Shown piece by piece: positions 19,715 through 46,564 of a stretch of 64,000 nt of DNA (its first letter is position 1; each line of letters starts with the position of its first letter). This DNA comes from Campylobacter lanienae NCTC 13004 (lineage in GTDB: Bacteria; Campylobacterota; Campylobacteria; Campylobacterales; Campylobacteraceae). Both the position numbers and the translations under genes were made by a program. The DNA lies in assembly GCF_002139935.1 (NCBI RefSeq), contig NZ_CP015578.1, positions 744,001-808,000 on the forward strand. The letters are read 5' to 3'. The notes beneath the pieces were generated by a model. That model saw only the letters and a list, made by a program, of their open reading frames with translations, had not been told where the DNA came from and did no database searches.

Positions 19715-19843
19715 CAATAATATATCTATATTTTATTAAATTTATTTAATTTTTATCGGTAAAAAAGGATATTAAAATTATATACTATATTTATATTTAT
19801 TTTAAATATATCTATATGTATGATTATAAATTTTAATTTTTTA

Positions 19844-19881
19844 TTTTTTTTTTTTTTTTTTTTTTTCAATTAGGGTATAAT
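19844..19881 (+). promoter_or_regulatory. T23 tract and -10 box upstream of the second sugar amidotransferase gene
   Basis: Twenty-three consecutive T (19844-19866) end 9 bases before TATAAT (19876-19881). The tract therefore covers the -35 region and the spacer, where a change of one or two bases should alter promoter strength. The gene's ATG is at 19911. Confidence 0.7.
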
Positions 19882-36322: not shown

Positions 36323-36930
36323 TTAAATTACTTTGTACAGTTGAGAAATAGTTATATTTTTTTCTTCTTCTAAAAATTTTAATTCTAAATAAAGAATTAA
36401 GGCTTCATTACTTATTTGAAATTTATATATGGCTTTTTTTGGTTTGGGTAATAAATACTTTTGAATAGTTATTGCAACAAGCAACTCCTGTTCTTGTTTA
36501 AAATAATCTTTTTTAATGTAGCACAAAAATTGTCTGTGATATTTTTATTATAAAATTATATGTTAAATCCTTGATTATTGATTTCTTTTGTATAGTAATT
36601 CCACATTGGTAGAGAATCATTATCAAGCGAAAAACAACATACGAACACATTTTCTTGGCTATCTGATAAAATAGAACGTAATTCCGATTGTTGTTTTTCA
36701 AACACATCACTATCTTTACTAAAACTTTCCAACCCTGCAATAATTTCGTCTTTATCATTCATGTAATTAATGTTTGTAAAATGAAGGCTCTTTTTACTCA
36801 GAATACCTTGTAGTCCATAAATAGAAGTGTAATGGAAAATAGATTTTTCTCTTGAACCTCTTCTAAAAGTAAGTTTTGATTTTTTTAAAAGAGAATAATT
36901 TATTCTTGTTTCAATAAGATGAAATTCCAT
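36323..36930 (-). pseudogene. DUF2971-like gene, apparently broken
   Basis: From ATG 36930 a 124-residue frame shows the DUF2971 start pattern: IFHYTSIYGLQGILSKKSLHF then NYMNDKDEI and CCFSLDNDSLPMWNYYT, where intact members continue with a GFCIEF-type strand. Here the frame reads NNQGFNI and stops (TAA, 36556-36558). Reading past the stop gives FYNKNITDNFCATLK in the same frame, and another frame then encodes DYFKQEQELLVAI and about 45 further residues ending at 36323. The parts fit one gene damaged by a stop and a frameshift, though a short genuine protein is possible. It is the last gene of the defence island, 25 bases after the TrlF-type gene. DUF2971 genes are common in defence islands; function unknown. 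Confidence 0.55.
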
Positions 36931-36955: not shown

Positions 36956-39697
36956 TTACTTATATCCATATTTTTTTTCACGGATTTCAAAGGCTATATT
37001 TCCACCTTCTAAAATTTCACAAATATGTTCCCTTATTCCTTTTGATAATAAAGTGGTAGTACATGATTCATCTACAAAGGAATCTTCTATAGCATTTGCA
37101 TAGTATTCAAATTTGACACCAGCCTGATTTGGAGAACTATCACCATTTTGATTTGCAACAATTACAAGTTCTGCGTCAGCTCCAACAACTACATTTGGGT
37201 TATGTGTTGCAAGAATAATTTGTCTATGCTTTTTTTGTTTACGCAAATATGTTACTAACTGATCATAAATAGCACGATTATCTAAATCATCTTCAGGTTG
37301 ATCTATAATAATTGGACAAAGACTATCATCAAAATCTAAAAGAAGTCGTAAAGCAATAAATGCTTTTTTTCCTTCTGACATTTTACTAAATTTATCACCA
37401 TCATAATTTACATCATATGATATTTTGTAATAATTATTTGAGAATAAATCAATTAATGCTTGCTGGAAATTTGTTTTTACTAAAGCATATTTATCAGAAA
37501 TAATTCCATCAAAGAAGTCTTTCATAGCTTTTTCTAAATCAGAAGTATTAAAATCATCATAGTTATCGTATTTTTTTATCTCAGGATTCCTTCTATTAAG
37601 TAAACTCAATGCTTTATCAAAGAAATCTTTAAATATGTATGTAGATATAGCTTGAATCTTAACTTCGTCTCGTTCCGTTAAAAGTTTTTTAGATAATTCA
37701 TCAGATTTTTGTTTGAATTTTAGAAATTTACTCCAAATATCTTTAGAACATTCATCTTTAGCGGTTATTAATTTTTTTCTTTCTTCTTCTAATTTAACAA
37801 TATTATTCTTTTTTATATTTTCTTCTTGTAATTTCAGAGTTTTGCTTTTTATTATTGTGTTATCTTCCTGAAGTCTTTCTCCTCGTACAAAAATTTCAGT
37901 ATCAGTAATATATTTTATTGATGCATTTTCAGCTTCTATGCAATTTTCACGTTCCTGTATTTCACTAGTAATAAATTGATCCCATTGTTTATTTGCATCA
38001 TTTTGTAATTTCAAATAAAACTCTTGAATTTTTTTATATGAATCATTTGAAAATTTTGAAAGTGCAGAATCTATAGGAGCAAATAGAGGAAAGTCTTTTA
38101 ATAGTTTCAATTGAGTACTATCGGAAATAAAGATTTCTTTATTTACACTATGTTTTTCAAGTTGATCTTTATATTCACAATAAATTTCATCTTCTTCTGG
38201 TGTTAAATACACTGATAAACTTTTCTTTATTATTTCTATTTCTTTCTGAATTTTTAGAATTTCTGCCTCAATTCCTGTTTTATTTCCAATACTATCAATT
38301 TGACTGTTAATTTCTTCTATCTGACTTTTATACTGACAAAATTCGTTTATTTTAGTATTAATTTCAGATTTGTTTACAGTTACAAAATTATCATAGTTCT
38401 TTAATAATTCAAATTTATCAGGTTCTTTTTTTACAATTTCTTCAACAAGCTCACTTATACCAGAAATACCATATTCGTCTTCACGTACTTTTTCACTTAT
38501 TGCTGATTGTGAATAATAAATAATCTTTCTATATTCATCCGTATTATCACGCCATTTAATTGATACACCTTCATTTAATTCTTTAATATGTTTATTATAT
38601 TTCTTGAATTCTTCGTTATCTTTTGGTTCAATTTTGGGATCAATAGTTGAAGCTAAACAACCAAGTAAAATCGATTTACCTGAAGATCTACCACCTATTA
38701 TAGTATTCAAGTTCTGATTAAACATAATTTCTTGATGATTCATTTCTGAATTATTAAAAATTATAGAATCAATAATTTGATAATCGGATTTGTCTTCTGG
38801 TTTTTCTTCACTTATATAAACTCTATCTTCTGGTTCATATAAGATTTGCTTTAATCCATTAAATGTAGGTAATGCTTTAATCCAAGTATAGCGTTTATCT
38901 TCAAAACAAAACATTTTATTTAGTTCATGTGCATCACAACCTCGTATACATGGTTTTATAGAACCATAATCCTTTATTAAATCATCTTTAGATAAAACTC
39001 CATTCCCTAAAAAGAATTTTATATCTTTAGTATTTGCCGAAAAAATAAAATCTGATAAACGATAAATTTCTTTTCTTGTAGCACTTAATGAACTATCTTG
39101 TATACCACTATTACCATCATCACTACTATTTGCAACGCCAACTATATAATGTCCTTCTAAAGATTTTGCTTTTAAGACACTTCTTAAATCAGAAAATGTA
39201 ATATTAAATTGATTAAGTCCAGTTTTGTAAGCTTCTTCATCTGAGACAGAATTAGTATTTATTGCTTTTCCTAATTGGATTAATGAATCTCTATTACACT
39301 GATATTTCGAACCTGAAAATTCAAATTCAAGTTGATTAAAAAAATCTCGTCGGATTATATCTGTGCTTAAATTTGGATCGAATAAAACATGTATATTTAT
39401 AGGTGTTTCAGTTCTAGTAACAGGCAAAATTCTTAATTCAACATTAGGAATTAAGTAAACATTGGGTATTCTTCCATTCTTTTGCTGTTCAACCATATAT
39501 AAATAATTCTCAATAGAGAAGTAATCAGTAATTCCTAAAACAACTGTATCAGTATTTTTTTCAATTTTGTTTAAATATTTTTCCCATTTTTCTTCCTTAT
39601 TCGCACCTTCAAACTGATCATTTTTACCTGTAAAAGGTGTATGAATATGTAAATCCCATTTATGCCATTCAGAACCACGAGTATTTTTATTTATCAT
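36956..39697 (-). CDS. PHP-domain / SMC-like ATPase (TrlF-type), putative defence protein
   Basis: A 913-residue protein. The N-terminus has a PHP-type metal motif (WDLHIHTPFTG, about residues 13-23) and later GITDYFSIE and IPNVELRI, consistent with a metal-dependent phosphoesterase. Walker A GGRSSGKSILLGC lies near residue 335; a long region of coiled coil (about 430-690) separates it from the signature MSEGKKAFIALRLLL and Walker B CPIIIDQPEDDLDN near 790, then the switch His in LATHNPNVV. This is an SMC/Rad50-like head split by a coiled coil with a PHP domain in front. Protein databases name such proteins TrlF-family AAA-like ATPases (memory). The start overlaps hsdS by 11 bases. Lying directly after hsdS, it is likely an added effector of the restriction system or an independent anti-phage protein. 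Confidence 0.8.
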   Translation of the reverse strand: MINKNTRGSEWHKWDLHIHTPFTGKNDQFEGANKEEKWEKYLNKIEKNTDTVVLGITDYFSIENYLYMVEQQKNGRIPNVYLIPNVELRILPVTRTETPINIHVLFDPNLSTDIIRRDFFNQLEFEFSGSKYQCNRDSLIQLGKAINTNSVSDEEAYKTGLNQFNITFSDLRSVLKAKSLEGHYIVGVANSSDDGNSGIQDSSLSATRKEIYRLSDFIFSANTKDIKFFLGNGVLSKDDLIKDYGSIKPCIRGCDAHELNKMFCFEDKRYTWIKALPTFNGLKQILYEPEDRVYISEEKPEDKSDYQIIDSIIFNNSEMNHQEIMFNQNLNTIIGGRSSGKSILLGCLASTIDPKIEPKDNEEFKKYNKHIKELNEGVSIKWRDNTDEYRKIIYYSQSAISEKVREDEYGISGISELVEEIVKKEPDKFELLKNYDNFVTVNKSEINTKINEFCQYKSQIEEINSQIDSIGNKTGIEAEILKIQKEIEIIKKSLSVYLTPEEDEIYCEYKDQLEKHSVNKEIFISDSTQLKLLKDFPLFAPIDSALSKFSNDSYKKIQEFYLKLQNDANKQWDQFITSEIQERENCIEAENASIKYITDTEIFVRGERLQEDNTIIKSKTLKLQEENIKKNNIVKLEEERKKLITAKDECSKDIWSKFLKFKQKSDELSKKLLTERDEVKIQAISTYIFKDFFDKALSLLNRRNPEIKKYDNYDDFNTSDLEKAMKDFFDGIISDKYALVKTNFQQALIDLFSNNYYKISYDVNYDGDKFSKMSEGKKAFIALRLLLDFDDSLCPIIIDQPEDDLDNRAIYDQLVTYLRKQKKHRQIILATHNPNVVVGADAELVIVANQNGDSSPNQAGVKFEYYANAIEDSFVDESCTTTLLSKGIREHICEILEGGNIAFEIREKKYGYK

Positions 39698-41228
39698 TTG
39701 TATTCTCCTTTATTTCCAACTTTTCACACAAAGGCAACATCTGTTCAATTATTTCTACAATCTTTTCTTGTTCAGCAAGCGGAGGGAGTGGAAGGAGTAA
39801 TCCAAAGAAAATATCCTTGTTCAAATGCGGAATAGCTGCTCCTTTTTTAGAATTTCGCAATAAATCCTTATTCAGTGCTATAAATTGCAATACATAAGGT
39901 AAATACAATTCATTAACAATATTTAATTTTTTAAAAGTACTACCCATTATACCTTCTTCTTTATTAATGAATACTTCTCCTGAATTTTCTCCATCAACAA
40001 GAATTAATAAATCGTTAGGTTTTGCTAATTTTCCTGAAGATAGGTACTCGGCTTCTTTTTTCCCACGAAGATATTTTGCGTCAAGTAAAGGTAATTTTAT
40101 ATCTTGAATTTTTTCGCCATCAGTTAATTTACAAATCTCCCCCAATCTACACCAACACCAGCTTTTAGGAATTTCAAAGGGGATTTCATCTTCTGTAATC
40201 TCACTTGCGGCAATTGGAGCGGGCTTTTTGGCTTTTGGGTTTTTCTTTTTTGTTTCTTCCCATTGGGCTAGAAGTTTTGCGTTGCGTTCTTCTATAATTT
40301 TGTCTAAAAGCTGTTTGCCACTTTCTTCTATTGTGGCAGTTTTTCGCCAAGATTTTGTGAGTTTGCCTTGTATTGCCTCTTGTAAAATGGCTTTTTTTAC
40401 TTTGTCTGGAAGAGCGGTTTTTAATTCCTCTTTTTGGAGAACCGCATTTTCGTAAGCATCAACCAAAGGCAGCACTTCTTCAAGTTTTACAACAATTGCA
40501 TTTTGCACGGCAAGTGGTGGGAGTGGAAACGGATATGCTTTTAAAATTTCAAAAGGAGGAATGTTCTTTATAGCTGTTCCAGAACTTTGTTTTGATGCTT
40601 CTTTTTTAAGAACATAATCAAAATATAACATCCAAAAAGCAGATAATTCATCATTATATAGTTTTACTCTCATTAATGCTTGGTTGATAATTCCAATTGG
40701 AGCATTTTGGGGTAATTTATAAACTTCCCCAATTGTTCCTGCACAACTTATAATTATATCTTCAGGTTCAACAATAAAACTCTGCATTGAATCAAATTTT
40801 TCTTTTGGAATGTAATAATCGCCAAGTGTAAAGTCTTTTTGTATTGCATTTTTTTGTTCATAAACTTTTACTGAAAATTCACTTCTTGGAACAAACATAG
40901 ATTTTGTTAAACTACTTCCGAAAGGACCTTTCCTATAAAGACCAAGTTCCCCCAATCTACACCAGCACCAGTTCTCCGGAATCTCAAACGGGATTTCATC
41001 TTTTGTAATTTCACTTGGGACAATTGGAGCGGGCTTTTTGGCTTTTGGGTTTTTCTTTTTTGCTTCTTCCCATTGGGCTAGAAGTTTTGCGTTGCGTTCT
41101 TCTATAATTTTGTCTAAAAGCTCTTTGCCGGTTTTAGTTTCCCCTTCTACATTACTAATCAACTGGCCTGTTATGGCCGCTTGGAGAATTGCTTTTCTTA
41201 AATTTGTATCTTTTTTTATCTTTGCCAA
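39687..41228 (-). CDS. hsdS: Type I restriction-modification specificity subunit HsdS
   Basis: Sets the DNA target of the HsdRMS complex. Two target-recognition domains: the first from WCWCRLGELGLYRKGPFG to about PFPLPPLAVQNAIV, the second from WCWCRLGEICKL to LLLPLPPLAEQEKIVEII; each is followed by a conserved helix. A nearly identical block (DEIPFEIP..WCWCRLGE preceded by LLDKIIEERNAKLLAQWEE) occurs before each domain. I choose TTG 41228 (AAAAAAGGAAAC upstream, giving LAKIKKDTNLRKAIL), because in-frame ATGs at 41282 and 41330 would translate the repeat array; 41282 remains possible. About 513 residues. Overlaps the next gene by 11 bases. Confidence 0.9.
   Translation of the reverse strand: MAKIKKDTNLRKAILQAAITGQLISNVEGETKTGKELLDKIIEERNAKLLAQWEEAKKKNPKAKKPAPIVPSEITKDEIPFEIPENWCWCRLGELGLYRKGPFGSSLTKSMFVPRSEFSVKVYEQKNAIQKDFTLGDYYIPKEKFDSMQSFIVEPEDIIISCAGTIGEVYKLPQNAPIGIINQALMRVKLYNDELSAFWMLYFDYVLKKEASKQSSGTAIKNIPPFEILKAYPFPLPPLAVQNAIVVKLEEVLPLVDAYENAVLQKEELKTALPDKVKKAILQEAIQGKLTKSWRKTATIEESGKQLLDKIIEERNAKLLAQWEETKKKNPKAKKPAPIAASEITEDEIPFEIPKSWCWCRLGEICKLTDGEKIQDIKLPLLDAKYLRGKKEAEYLSSGKLAKPNDLLILVDGENSGEVFINKEEGIMGSTFKKLNIVNELYLPYVLQFIALNKDLLRNSKKGAAIPHLNKDIFFGLLLPLPPLAEQEKIVEIIEQMLPLCEKLEIKENTNDK
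40139..40319 (-). repeat. Direct repeat within hsdS, copy 2
   Basis: 181-bp segment repeated at 40949-41129, offset exactly 810 bases (270 codons), so the reading frame is conserved. The central 110 bases are almost identical at the DNA level. It precedes the second recognition domain. Confidence 0.85.
40949..41129 (-). repeat. Direct repeat within hsdS, copy 1
   Basis: Partner of 40139-40319, preceding the first recognition domain. Recombination between copies would delete exactly one recognition domain in frame. Confidence 0.85.
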
Positions 41229-41264
41229 TTTAGTTTCCTTTTTTATGTTGTCAAATTCATCAAA

Positions 41265-41361
41265 TTGGGTACATAATGTCATCAATATGTACCCAAAAAC
41301 AATATTTTGGGTACATATACGAATGAGCATGTACCCAAAATCGTTAAATTGGGTACATATT
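41265..41361. repeat. Five alternating TGGGTACAT boxes between fic and hsdS
   Basis: The core GGGTACAT or its complement ATGTACCC occurs at five places with the palindromic centre GTAC at 41269, 41289, 41311, 41331 and 41353, i.e. spaced 20, 22, 20 and 22 bp, with orientation alternating forward, reverse, forward, reverse, forward. Adjacent boxes pair: 41285-41298 with 41305-41318 is a perfect 14-bp stem with a 6-base loop, and 41329-41338 with 41349-41358 a 10-bp stem. The last box abuts the fic stop codon. It may be a multi-site operator or an RNA structure that sets the hsdM-fic to hsdS ratio. Confidence 0.9.
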
Positions 41362-42490
41362 ACGATTTTACAGATTCAATAGTTTCAACTTCTGATACAA
41401 CTTTTCCTTGATTTAGAAATAATTCAAATAAAGCATTATTAATATAATAATTAGATGATCCTTTTTTCATTTTTGTCAAAAGTTTTAAATCTACAATCAT
41501 ATCAAGATATTTTGCTGCCGTTTTGCGTTGAACATTCATATCCCGTTCAATAAATTCAATCTTTGTATACGGATGGAAAAATAAATTATTCAAAAGTTCA
41601 TGTTTATATGTTTTTCCAAATACGGGTTTTAAGATTGCTTTATATTGTGCCATTAATTGCGCAATACCATTTATTAAAATAATTGTTTCTTTAGATGTAA
41701 CTTCTATTCCTTTAAGAATAAACATAACCCAATTCTGCCAATCCTTTATATTTCCATCATTATCACGGACAGCTTGAATCAATTTGTAATAATCGGCTTT
41801 ATTACGAGTGATATAACGACTCAAATATAAAATTGGTAAATCCAAAAGTCTATTTTGTACTAAATATAAAACAGAAATAATACGCCCAGTTCTTCCGTTA
41901 CCATCATAAAAAGGATGTATACTTTCAAATTGGTGATGTATTATTGCTAGTTTAATCAATGGATCTAAATCAGATAATTCAGAATTGTTAATAAAGTGTT
42001 CAAGATTTGACATATAATGTTCAACTTCATCTCCTGTTTTTGGAGGAGCATAAACAATTTCTTGCTTAGAATTTTGTAATGTTACAGCACTTGTTCTAAA
42101 CCCAGCTTTATTTTTTTCAAGCTTTTCTTGAATATTTTTAATAATGTTATTTGTAAGAAGCATATTTTCTTTTACTCTTGAAAAGCCTTCAAGCATAGCT
42201 TCTCTATAATTCATAACCTCTTTTGCTGCACTGCTAACTGCATAATTACTTACAGAAAGATCTGCTTGAAAAATCTCATCATGGGTTGTTACTATATTTT
42301 CTACTTCGGAACTTTCCTTTGCTTCTTGTATAACAAGAGAATTAATCAAAACACCTTCATTTGGAATTGTATGAGCAACTCCTTTTAATTCTGCCAACGC
42401 TTTGTTTGCAAGATTAACTTGTTTGAGTATTTCTTTTGTTTCAAGGTCAATTCCAAGTGGTAATTTAGGAATAGTATAAGTCTTTGCCAA
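41360..42490 (-). CDS. Fic-family protein with C-terminal winged helix
   Basis: A 376-residue Fic protein. The catalytic motif HPFYDGNGRTGR (about residues 190-201) is intact, so it should transfer AMP or a related group. An inhibitory-helix motif is visible near the N-terminus (SSEVEN, matching S/TxxxE-G/N), which would block ATP until released. After the Fic core a winged helix (IEFIERDMNVQRKTAAKYLDMI, about 305-330) suggests DNA binding. It lies between hsdM (8-base gap) and hsdS, unusual for a core type I operon but seen in accessory-rich ones. The box array begins at its stop codon. The target is unknown. Confidence 0.88.
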   Translation of the reverse strand: MAKTYTIPKLPLGIDLETKEILKQVNLANKALAELKGVAHTIPNEGVLINSLVIQEAKESSEVENIVTTHDEIFQADLSVSNYAVSSAAKEVMNYREAMLEGFSRVKENMLLTNNIIKNIQEKLEKNKAGFRTSAVTLQNSKQEIVYAPPKTGDEVEHYMSNLEHFINNSELSDLDPLIKLAIIHHQFESIHPFYDGNGRTGRIISVLYLVQNRLLDLPILYLSRYITRNKADYYKLIQAVRDNDGNIKDWQNWVMFILKGIEVTSKETIILINGIAQLMAQYKAILKPVFGKTYKHELLNNLFFHPYTKIEFIERDMNVQRKTAAKYLDMIVDLKLLTKMKKGSSNYYINNALFELFLNQGKVVSEVETIESVKS

Positions 42491-42498
42491 TTTTTCTC

Positions 42499-43989
42499 CT
42501 ATAATTCAATTCCAAGAATTTCAGTAATTTTTGCTAGTGTTACATTGATTTTTTCTTCTGCAGCTTCACTATGCTTTTTATAATTTATGATTGTCTCTTT
42601 TATGCTTAAGATTTCCTCTTCTTCGTGAGGATAACCGCAAAGGTCAAGGTTATAGCCACCTTCTATAAGCTCGTAAGAAGTAAAGCATTTTGCCTTTGGA
42701 TTTCCTTCTTCATCGGCTATTTCTTTACGATTATTCCACCATGCAACACAATCATCAAAATCAGAAAATTTCATCGGTTTAGTTTTAGAAAAGTGTTTAA
42801 TTTCATCTGGTATATCTACACGATAAAACCATGTTTTACCGGTTGGTTCTTCATTATTGAAAAAGAGAATATTTGTTGTAATGCTTGTATAAGGAGAAAA
42901 GACACTTTGTGGCAACCGCACCACGGTATGTAGATTATATTCTGTCAGTAGCTTTTTCTTGAGATTTACCTTTGCGTTATCATTGCCGAACAAAAATCCA
43001 TCAGGAATAATTACAGCGGCACGACCGTTTTTCTTTAGACGATACAAAATAACAGCTATAAAAAGATCTGCTGTTTCGCTTGATTTTAAATCAGCTGGAA
43101 AGTTTTGCTTGATGTCTTCTTTTTCGCTTCCGCCATAAGGTGGATTCATAAGAATTACATCAAATGCATCTTTTTTTGTGTAGTCCAAAAGTTTTTTTGT
43201 AAGTGAGTTATCGTGAAATACTTTTGGATTGTCAATTCCGTGAAGCAACATATTTGTTACACAGAGCATATAAGGGAATTGTTTTTTTTCGATTGCGTAA
43301 ATTGAATTGTAAAGTTTTTCAGAATCTTCATTGCTGATTGATCCTTTTGCGTCTTTGATTGCTTCAAGTTCTTTTATCCAACTTGAAAGAAATCCTCCTG
43401 TTCCACAGGCAAAATCAGCCATTGTTTCGCCAATTTGTGGTTTAATCATTTTTGCCATAAACTCTGTTACGGCACGCGGAGTGTAAAACTCACCCGCAGA
43501 ACCTGCACTTTGAAGTTCTTTCAAAATAGTTTCATATATTTCGCCAAAGGCATGGGTTTCTTCATAGCTTCCAAAATCAAGCTCATCAATAATATTGATA
43601 ATCTGACGGAGAAGCACTCCATCTTTCATATAATTGTTTGCATCTTCAAAAGTTGTGCGCACAATACTTTGGCGAATTGGGGTATCTGAATTTATTTCAA
43701 GTTTTCTTAATGTTGGGAAAAGTTCATTGTTTACAAAATTCAAAAGCTGGTCTCCGGTAAGTCCATCATTTTGATTTTCTACATGAGCCCAATTTCTCCA
43801 GCGTAATTTTGGGGGAATTATAGATTCAAATTGTTCATCATCAAATTCCCAGTCTTCTTCTTTTGCGTCATAAACTTTTAAGAAAAGCATCCAGGTTATC
43901 TGTTCAATTCTCTGGGCATCACCATTTATACCGGCATCGTTCCGCATTACATCACGGACTCTTTTTACAAAACCACTTAAGTTGCTCAT
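42499..43989 (-). CDS. hsdM: Type I restriction-modification methyltransferase HsdM
   Basis: The adenine-N6 methyltransferase subunit, 496 residues. N-terminal helical HsdM_N domain (DVMRNDAGINGDAQRIEQITWMLFLK), GEFYTPRAVTEFM, SAM motif I ADFACGTGGFL and catalytic motif IV LMNPPYGG. Complete. Its start is 88 bases downstream of hsdR; the gap holds a 12-bp inverted repeat. Confidence 0.95.
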   Translation of the reverse strand: MSNLSGFVKRVRDVMRNDAGINGDAQRIEQITWMLFLKVYDAKEEDWEFDDEQFESIIPPKLRWRNWAHVENQNDGLTGDQLLNFVNNELFPTLRKLEINSDTPIRQSIVRTTFEDANNYMKDGVLLRQIINIIDELDFGSYEETHAFGEIYETILKELQSAGSAGEFYTPRAVTEFMAKMIKPQIGETMADFACGTGGFLSSWIKELEAIKDAKGSISNEDSEKLYNSIYAIEKKQFPYMLCVTNMLLHGIDNPKVFHDNSLTKKLLDYTKKDAFDVILMNPPYGGSEKEDIKQNFPADLKSSETADLFIAVILYRLKKNGRAAVIIPDGFLFGNDNAKVNLKKKLLTEYNLHTVVRLPQSVFSPYTSITTNILFFNNEEPTGKTWFYRVDIPDEIKHFSKTKPMKFSDFDDCVAWWNNRKEIADEEGNPKAKCFTSYELIEGGYNLDLCGYPHEEEEILSIKETIINYKKHSEAAEEKINVTLAKITEILGIEL

Positions 43990-44077: not shown

Positions 44078-46564
44078 TTACGCTATTTTATATAATTCAT
44101 TTTCCAATTCACGAAGAGCTGTTCTATACTTATCATTTCCCCCAAACAAGGCTGCAATCCGAGAAGGTTTCCCAAACTTTGTAAATGGACTCTGCTTGAG
44201 AATTTCGGTTGACTCAATGTCGTAAATGCCAAGTTGGGCATATTTATCCAGCAGCGCATTGATCACCTCTTTTGCAGCTTCTCCATATTTACCAAAAAGA
44301 TCTCGTTTCTTTACTTTTTCTGCACGCTCACGACGAGTCAAGGGCTTTTGGTCAAATGCGATATGGCAGATAAAATCAAAGTCATCCACATCCATCATAT
44401 TTTGATCTTTTTTAATGAGTTCTAAATCTATACCACGCTCTTTAAGCATATTGCGTATGACTTCTTTCTTCTGCTCTTCATTCCAGGTCTGGATAAAATT
44501 TTCAAGGGTTTGATATGTTCCAAGAATACTTTCTTTTGTGTAATCTTCGATGCTTTCTTGCTTCAGAAGTTTGCCATTTGTATCGTAGATAGAAACTAGT
44601 CTTTGTAGAACCTGTACAGTAACGCTGCCTTTTCCAACAAACTGAATTTCTTTCCTACCATTTTGGCTCCCATTATCATCACTGCCATTTTCAAAATCAC
44701 CCTCATATTCGCCTTCTGGCTGTGGATTTGGATTATAATCGTCATCTTGTTCAATCTCTCCATCCCATTCTGGGTCGGCAAACAAACGGCTTACACGGCG
44801 AAAATCCATTATTGTAAAATGAGTTTTTCCCTCATCATATCTCAGACGAGTTCCACGGCCAATTATCTGCTTAAACTCTGTCATTGAATTGATTAGCTCA
44901 TCTAAAACAATGAGTTTTACCATCTTGCAGTCGCTTCCAGTAGAAAGAAGCTTTGATGTAGTTGCAATAACGGGATAGGGCTGCGAAACTGAAATGAAAT
45001 AATCCAGCTTTTCTTTTCCATATTTATCACTTCCAGTGATACGGACAACATACTGCTCTTTTACATTGCCTTGATTATCTTTCAGAATCATATCAGTATT
45101 CAAATTGTTCAGTGCAACTCGCATACGTTCTGCGGCATCTTCTGTGGGACAAAATACAATTGTCTTGGACATACGGTCTGTTTCTTTTAAGAATTTTGTA
45201 ATTTCCTGGGCAACTTCATCAATTCTATCTTGGATGACAATATTATAGTCATAATCTGAAAGATTATATTCTTGGTCTTCGATTTCAATTCCGTTAATAT
45301 CCTTTTGACCTAGTTTTGGTCTCCAGCCCTCATCAATACTAGTCCGAACATGTATTACCTTGAATGGAGCAAGAAATCCATCTTCAATTCCTTGTTTAAG
45401 ACTGTAGCTGTAAACAGGTTCTCCAAAATAATCGATATTAGAAACATATTTTGTTTCCTTTGGTGTAGCTGTCATACCAATCTGTGTAGCACTGCTAAAA
45501 TAATCAAGAATCTTTCGCCAGCGAGAATCAGCCTTTGCAGACCCACGATGACACTCATCAACAATAATAAGATCAAAGAAATCTGGTTTGAAGAACTCTT
45601 TATATTTGGCAATTTCTGCTTCTATTTCAACTTCTGTTTCTTCAACTTCCTCTCCCTGATGCCTTGCGGAATCCAACTGTTGATAAAGGGCAAAATAGAC
45701 CTGATATGCTGAAATTTTTGATTTATCTTCTTTTTGGAAATTGATTTTGTGGATTACTTTTTCTAAAGGCTTAAAGTCACCGTTAATAGTCTGATCTACG
45801 AGATTATTTCTATCAGCAAGATAGAGCACTTTCTTCTTTACTCCAGACTCAAGGAGTCTCCATACAATCTGAAAAGCCGTATAGGTTTTTCCTGTTCCAG
45901 TTGCCATTACAATCAGAATTCGGGTTTGTTGTTGTGAAATTGCCGCAAGGGTTCTATTTACCGCATTTCGCTGATAGTATCTAGGGGGATAACAATTTGA
46001 ACCAGAATAGAAAGGTGTATTCAAAAGATTTTCTTCAAAGCAAAGTGGAACATCATATACTTTTGATTCTCCATCCATCGCATATCGTTCTCGGTTTTCA
46101 ACTTCTAGAATTTTTGTTGCATCAACACCTTTCCACCGGGCATAAAGTTCATCTGCAGTGGGAAACTCCGAAAGGGGAAATTCTTTTTCAAGCCCAGTTG
46201 TAAAATCGTGTTCAAAAAAGCTATCTCCGTTTGATGTATAGACAAAAGGAACATTCATCATAATTCCATAGGAAATGGCTTGTTGCATACCAAATGATGT
46301 TGAATGATTATTATCTTTAGCTTCTACAATCGCAAGTGGAGTCCCTTTATTATACCAAAGAACATAGTCACATCTTTTCCCTTTATCACGACTTGGAACA
46401 TTTCCTTTAATGAGAACCTTCCCATCCGTGAAATTATTTACAGGAGCTGTCTCCATGGTTATTTTTTTAATATCCCATTTTGTCAACAATGCTGGAGTAA
46501 TATATTGAAGTTTAATATCTTCTTCTGTCATTTCCGATTTTGTTAATATATAGGGAGTTGCCAT
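44078..46564 (-). CDS. hsdR: Type I restriction endonuclease subunit HsdR
   Basis: The motor/nuclease subunit, 828 residues. N-terminal PD-(D/E)xK nuclease with DYVLWYNKGTPLAIVEAKDNN (about 86-106), then SF2 helicase: Walker A VMATGTGKTYTAFQ (about 220), DECHRGS (about 333) in place of the usual DEAH-like box, motif III GMTATPKET and motif VI QIIGRGTRLR. A Glu/Asp/Gly-rich linker (DDDYNPNPQPEGEYEGDFENG) follows, then a C-terminal helical domain for binding the methylase. Full length. A TATAAT on the minus strand (46601-46606) is 37 bases upstream of the ATG. Confidence 0.95.
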   Translation of the reverse strand: MATPYILTKSEMTEEDIKLQYITPALLTKWDIKKITMETAPVNNFTDGKVLIKGNVPSRDKGKRCDYVLWYNKGTPLAIVEAKDNNHSTSFGMQQAISYGIMMNVPFVYTSNGDSFFEHDFTTGLEKEFPLSEFPTADELYARWKGVDATKILEVENRERYAMDGESKVYDVPLCFEENLLNTPFYSGSNCYPPRYYQRNAVNRTLAAISQQQTRILIVMATGTGKTYTAFQIVWRLLESGVKKKVLYLADRNNLVDQTINGDFKPLEKVIHKINFQKEDKSKISAYQVYFALYQQLDSARHQGEEVEETEVEIEAEIAKYKEFFKPDFFDLIIVDECHRGSAKADSRWRKILDYFSSATQIGMTATPKETKYVSNIDYFGEPVYSYSLKQGIEDGFLAPFKVIHVRTSIDEGWRPKLGQKDINGIEIEDQEYNLSDYDYNIVIQDRIDEVAQEITKFLKETDRMSKTIVFCPTEDAAERMRVALNNLNTDMILKDNQGNVKEQYVVRITGSDKYGKEKLDYFISVSQPYPVIATTSKLLSTGSDCKMVKLIVLDELINSMTEFKQIIGRGTRLRYDEGKTHFTIMDFRRVSRLFADPEWDGEIEQDDDYNPNPQPEGEYEGDFENGSDDNGSQNGRKEIQFVGKGSVTVQVLQRLVSIYDTNGKLLKQESIEDYTKESILGTYQTLENFIQTWNEEQKKEVIRNMLKERGIDLELIKKDQNMMDVDDFDFICHIAFDQKPLTRRERAEKVKKRDLFGKYGEAAKEVINALLDKYAQLGIYDIESTEILKQSPFTKFGKPSRIAALFGGNDKYRTALRELENELYKIA

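Follow-up and report, generated by a model that had tools for sequence, protein, structure and literature searches.

A type I restriction-modification (R-M) locus of Campylobacter lanienae NCTC 13004 carries a fic gene between hsdM and hsdS, and nearly all of the DNA between fic and hsdS is taken up by regularly repeated, strand-alternating boxes. This arrangement raises the question of which protein reads the boxes and to what effect. We analyzed the surrounding window, a stretch of 64,000 nucleotides (contig NZ_CP015578.1, positions 744,001 to 808,000; coordinates below are those of the window), together with related fic loci from other bacteria.

The fic-hsdS junction

The genes of the locus lie on the minus strand in the order hsdR, hsdM, fic, array, hsdS. 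An EcoEI-type hsdR (44078-46564) comes first, hsdM (42499-43989) ends 8 bp upstream of fic (41360-42490), and hsdS, which encodes the specificity subunit (39687-41228), is the first gene past the array. The longest hsdS open reading frame would start within the array; judged from the sequence, the TTG at 41228, with AAGGA 7 bp ahead of it (41240-41236), is likely a better start. The fic product is a class II Fic adenylyltransferase whose translation contains an intact HPFYDGNGRTGR Fic motif, an N-terminal inhibitory helix of the SxxxEN type (SSEVEN) and a C-terminal winged helix-turn-helix (wHTH). Pfam assigned Fic_N, Fic and SoFic-like_C (residues 279-354) above cut-off, the PADLOC SoFic profile matched residues 6-358 with an E-value of 2.1e-112, and the fold resembled that of SoFic 3zcn (TM 0.87). 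By profile and fold, the protein is a member of the SoFic family. In its AlphaFold model (mean pLDDT 87.6), the wHTH spans residues 297-350 (41441-41602, minus strand), and the recognition helix (VQRKTAAKYL) spans residues 322-334 (41489-41527, minus strand).

Direct reading of the sequence gave five perfect copies of the 9-mer TGGGTACAT on alternating strands, at 41266(+), 41287(-), 41308(+), 41329(-) and 41350(+). The first-pass annotation had correctly placed the GTAC centres at 41269, 41289, 41311, 41331 and 41353. The 20/22-bp alternation that it described holds for these GTAC positions but not as the spacing of the boxes, since GTAC sits off-centre in the box and the box starts advance by a uniform 21 bp. 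A sixth, decayed half-site (ATGTTGTCA, 41245-41253) keeps this register. Read in the sense of the genes, the array consists of three 30-bp palindromes on the minus strand with 12 bp between units. Unit 1 (41329-41358), directly 3' of the fic stop codon, is formed by perfect ATGTACCCA half-sites at 41350-41358 and 41329-41337; unit 2 (41287-41316) by perfect half-sites at 41308-41316 and 41287-41295, with perfect 14-bp arms; and unit 3 (41245-41274) by a perfect half-site at 41266-41274 and the decayed one. With hsdS starting at TTG 41228, the gap between the genes (41229-41359) contains the array, which occupies 114 of its 131 bp, and a ribosome-binding site.

Among 5,000 Markov sequences generated from the window composition, four copies of the 9-mer within 131 bp occurred in three and five copies in none, which rules out chance repeats as the origin of the boxes. 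The 1.59-Mb genome contains seven exact boxes, five of them in this array, and a search across it for a second paired array found none. The two other boxes are single, and a host-wide regulon was rejected on this ground. In the sibling genome G001 the array differs by one base, located inside the decayed half-site (ATGTTGCCA instead of ATGTTGTCA). Within the window array, a promoter search returned weak and unconvincing matches, of which the best on the minus strand overlaps the likely hsdS start.

Arrays beside fic genes across phyla

We collected 190 fic loci from a scan of GTDB genomes and from searches in three further groups; after removal of duplicates, 181 SoFic-family loci spanning many phyla remained. 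Fic homologues from other Campylobacterota (46-53% identity) have alternating boxes directly 3' of fic, often starting within its 3' end, and the boxes differ in sequence (ATGTTAAAA, ATGTCGAAA, ATGGGTAAA and others). An unbiased spacing scan for NTG-arm palindromes near fic gave peaks at 29 bp (87 palindromes, 1.6 expected) and 30 bp (56, 0.9 expected), or 143 in total where flanking DNA predicts about 2.4; the following unit lies at 69-70 bp. Across loci, the step from one half-site to the next is 20 or 21 bp, whichever way the two are oriented relative to each other. The geometry of the arrays is thus common to the loci, whereas the box sequence differs from one locus to another.

Strict unit detection placed the array downstream of fic in 60 of the 181 loci, upstream in 48 and on both sides in 3; the 70 loci without a detected array include some that carry other box types. 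Bacteroidota Fic homologues of about 37-40% identity (L246, L247 and L254-L263) have alternating ACGAGAGTAAA / ACAAGGGTAAA boxes upstream of fic, a style missed by the NTG-rule detector. In L036 (2532-2660), a Fic relative (35% identity) is followed by direct repeats (TTTTACTAAGAGAATTTTATAG) in place of palindromes.

The side on which the array lies goes with the position of fic in its operon. A codirectional gene precedes fic with a gap of at most 60 bp in 22 of 40 loci with downstream arrays and in 1 of 32 with upstream arrays (p = 1.6e-6). The next gene is codirectional in 47 of 58 loci with downstream arrays versus 33 of 62 where no array was detected (p = 0.0018). About 20 of the 46 genes found downstream of an array belong to type I R-M systems (9 HsdS, about 7 HsdR types and 4 HsdM), and N6 methylases make up 10 of 39 upstream neighbours. 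The first-pass annotation had proposed looking for boxes at other hsdM-fic-hsdS loci. Two such loci with the layout hsdM..fic-[array]-hsdS of the window (L222 and L223) have an array at this position too; the sequences are different ones and fit the recognition helices of the respective loci. Other loci are arranged as hsdR..fic-[array]-hsdM-hsdS (L215-L217) or hsdR..hsdS-[array]-fic-hsdM (L226, L227 and L233), so that the array touches fic while the point at which it divides the operon varies. Arrays also lie upstream of fic genes that stand alone; among these genes is the E. coli fic of the SoFic family, whose ATGTCGA/TCGACAT array reaches the start codon (L274 1183-1402, L275 1183-1402 and L276 1202-1421). 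In E. coli S10, a frameshifted SoFic-type fic is followed by a second gene of the Fic family (L277 1386-3686).

Because arrays of the same geometry accompany fic whatever the neighbouring gene, the array, as far as these comparisons reach, belongs to fic and not to hsdS. The proposal that it forms a switch dedicated to a type I system does not hold: the module also stands beside hsdM, hsdR and genes unrelated to these, and in front of fic genes that stand alone, such as that of E. coli with its TCGA-box array.

Covariation of the recognition helix with the box

We scanned 327 Fic columns for excess mutual information with the box core. The top three were K323, Q321 and A326, which the AlphaFold model places at the N-terminal end of the recognition helix. 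Helix and box remained correlated when Fic-domain identity was controlled for (partial Mantel r = 0.46, reached in 0 of 2000 permutations). Helices of the form [QR]RKTA[AT]KYL go with TACCC boxes in all four loci that have them, namely the window, Muribaculaceae L039, Oligosphaera L048 and L132. The remaining pairs are xR[ILVM]TAT with TATAG, HRNTA with CACA, TRKTAS with nGTAA, [ST]RQTA with TTAA, and both [HKN]RQTA and HR[DE]TA with TCGAA.

A helix-to-box code, whose agreement with the training data was 50 of 54, was written down before new loci were fetched. In the new loci it was correct for 11 of 13 downstream arrays (7 of 20,000 permutations were as good) and for 21 of 28 arrays when both sides of fic were counted (0 of 20,000 permutations). 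The seven mismatches in this first held-out set were mostly [HK]RQ helices with TCGAA boxes, and four of the seven fit a single coherent refinement in which [HK]RQTA goes with TCGAA. Distant homologues made up a second held-out set, in which few boxes are detectable by the NTG rule; of the five loci that allowed a comparison, one was a strict match and two others had TCGA in common with the prediction. The E. coli boxes are of the class that the KRQTAS helix there predicts.

One pair of loci, L014 and L015, is 94% identical over Fic residues 5-270. Beginning at the recognition helix, the two sequences differ up to the end of fic and into the first array units, and beyond these they are near-identical again. 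L014 combines an HRDTASKYL helix with proximal TCGAA boxes and L015 a TRKTASKYL helix with GAGTAA/GGGTAA boxes; both loci have the same distal boxes. The simplest reading of this pair is that the specificity end of fic was exchanged together with the proximal boxes. Downstream of fic in L014, L056, L057 and L107, the array is mixed and contains at least two box types; in L014, L056 and L107 the resident helix fits the fic-proximal boxes and not the distal ones. In such arrays the distal boxes look as if they were fossils of earlier specificities.

Because the box core covaries with the recognition helix and the code predicted most boxes of the first held-out set, the window array is very probably the binding array of the adjacent Fic. 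The earlier suggestion that the neighbouring Fic reads the boxes through its winged helix, cooperatively and from one face of the DNA helix, is strongly supported on computational grounds by this covariation and by the conserved 20/21-bp lattice.

Two other accounts of the boxes bear on the same data. They might be operators of another host regulator, or recombination or phase-variation sites linked to hsdS. Recombination nearby is indeed indicated by hsdS itself: between the window (39687-41228) and the sibling L214 (8281-9975), the target-recognition domains differ at 80-109 positions per 150 aligned columns, beside an almost identical fic and array. By sequence comparison this is an exchange of HsdS specificity domains adjoining a constant array. 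The near-identity of the array next to a changed hsdS led us to reject hsdS-linked recombination sites. Since arrays also accompany fic irrespective of its neighbour, and the box tracks the Fic helix even where the rest of the protein is 94% identical, we give this account as a whole hardly any probability. Alternatively, the array might act as RNA, its hairpins attenuating or stabilizing the hsdM-fic-hsdS message or serving as a type III-like RNA antitoxin. The 14-bp and 10-bp stems between neighbouring boxes that the first-pass annotation had listed do exist, and, compared with shuffled sequence, the array RNA folds much better (z = -7), as is expected of any palindrome array; since the stems result from the DNA palindromes, they add nothing in favour of an RNA reading. 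RNA pairing would leave unexplained why the box tracks three residues of a recognition helix, why the 20/21-bp lattice is equal in both orientations and why arrays also lie ahead of fic, and a search of the window array for a terminator found none. A type III toxin-antitoxin system, in which tandem repeats ahead of the toxin gene serve as antitoxin RNA, was rejected, as the array here lies downstream of fic and its sequence tracks a DNA-reading helix. We regard action through RNA as very unlikely.

Predicted control by Fic and its precedents

The closest precedent is CccR, an experimentally established case of autorepression by a Fic-HTH protein. A dimer of this protein of Yersinia pseudotuberculosis, in which 70.2 A separate the reading helices, binds to an inverted repeat within its own promoter, and CccR represses its own expression (PMC9755527). 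Like the window Fic, CccR is a class II Fic with a C-terminal HTH; in common with the model proposed here, it has a dimer with reading helices about 70 A apart and an inverted repeat adjoining its own gene, and it is both an autorepressor and an AMPylating toxin. An HTH matched to a specific inverted repeat beside its gene is what we found computationally, through helix-box covariation and held-out prediction. CccR differs in that its promoter holds a single inverted repeat, AGATAATCAT-N26-ATGATAATCT, whereas the window has a multi-unit array behind fic and before hsdS; at other loci the array is upstream. CccR is also a T6SS effector and not encoded in a restriction operon, whereas the arrays studied here frequently lie 3' of a fic gene within R-M operons, and their specificity varies among homologues. 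According to these reports, both SoFic and CccR form dimers (PMC12249575, PMC9755527).

In the model that we favour, the two half-sites of a pair, separated by two helical turns (21 bp, about 71 A), would each receive one winged helix of a Fic dimer, and the fic-hsdS junction would be covered by three such dimers or by a short filament. Bound Fic would act on transcription entering hsdS, most likely as a repressor covering a promoter within the array or as a roadblock to read-through from hsdR-hsdM-fic, and the level of Fic would set the supply of HsdS. At several loci about 10-35 bp separate the end of the last half-site from the next start codon, which leaves space for a ribosome-binding site only and implies a dedicated promoter in or ahead of the array. 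A position right at the 3' end of fic may allow wHTH and operator to be exchanged as one, which would explain why the array lies there, as we infer from the single pair described above. Where a transcription unit begins with fic, the same array precedes the gene, and autorepression of the CccR kind would be expected. Control of hsdS transcription by Fic is in our judgment fairly probable, and the full model, in which the cognate array of the upstream SoFic-type Fic is covered by dimers that control hsdS, seems quite likely. Together these comparisons suggest that the SoFic family of anti-phage toxins doubles as a set of sequence-specific regulators of genes, lodged within restriction operons.

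A different role would be that of a leash, with the array holding Fic dimers inactive, or de-AMPylating, beside their own gene, and with regulation of hsdS secondary; loss, cutting or invasion of the locus would then free active toxin. Uncontrolled SoFic is toxic and its C-terminal domain and dimerization govern toxicity, as the SoFic report describes (PMC12249575), and CbFic2 shifts between AMPylation and de-AMPylation upon DNA binding by its wHTH (PMC10628234). That the window array is the sole one in its genome, and that genes unrelated to R-M follow the array at several loci, would also suit a leash. Against it, the toxicity and DNA binding of CccR are independent (PMC9755527), upstream arrays extend into the fic start as operators do, and codirectional next genes are commoner after downstream arrays than in loci without a detected array. 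On balance a leash seems unlikely. We hold the related idea of a DNA antitoxin, or tripwire, to be similarly improbable; here Fic dimers, forming a filament on their cognate boxes, would silence the toxin while the R-M locus is intact, and its release would activate AMPylation. If it were true, interchangeable wHTH and box specificities would create mutually exclusive compatibility groups of defence loci.

Returning to Fic as a regulator of the junction, three further systems are comparable. The anti-phage SoFic system (Shewanella SO_4266; E. coli EcSofic, PMC12249575) is of the same family as the window Fic by PADLOC, Pfam and fold. In the portion of that report drawn on here, the C-terminal domain of EcSofic is treated as an activity regulator, an antitoxin, AS1, is encoded downstream, and no operator is described (PMC12249575), whereas we predict that the C-terminal domain of the window Fic reads a specific array. 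CbFic2 of Coxiella burnetii is likewise a class II Fic with a wHTH whose activity is altered by DNA binding, but it was assayed with random DNA only, has no known specific site and targets host histone (PMC10628234). Functionally, the controller (C) proteins of type II R-M systems may offer an analogy, as small regulators within R-M loci with operators adjoining their own genes. C proteins belong to the XRE-type HTH proteins and have no enzyme domain. The putative regulator of the window differs from them as an AMP-transferase with Fic and wHTH domains in a type I locus.

How the widespread anti-phage toxin SoFic is controlled is poorly understood, and so far its C-terminal domain has been viewed as a structural regulator. 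If our reading is correct, this domain reads DNA by a code in which three residues specify about four bases, so that its target can be predicted from sequence; type I restriction operons would contain a built-in regulator coupled to a toxin, and the fic genes between hsdM and hsdS would be accounted for. Autoregulation by a Fic-HTH protein is already known from CccR. Openly licensed papers yielded no report of SoFic operators, downstream arrays, a helix-box code or Fic in type I R-M operons, and relative to this literature the multi-unit array, its site 3' of fic in type I operons, its occurrence across SoFic-family loci and the exchangeable helix-to-box code appear to be new. Part of this may be known to the authors of the recent SoFic PDB entries 9tc4, 9tch, 9tcl and 9tb0. 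The exchange of specificity also poses the question of what selects for differing operator specificities in a defence gene.

Other features of the window were noted in passing. A large ATPase gene (36956-39697; PADLOC Ppl-like, E-value 4.8e-20) lies directly 3' of hsdS and was not seen at the same place in the sibling L214. A short open reading frame at 36556-36930 has weak similarity to the candidate defence family PDC-S31 (E-value 8.6e-6) and is perhaps a remnant. A long poly-A/T tract at 19731-19860, with fifteen overlapping A9 words in 131 bp, is possibly hypermutable.
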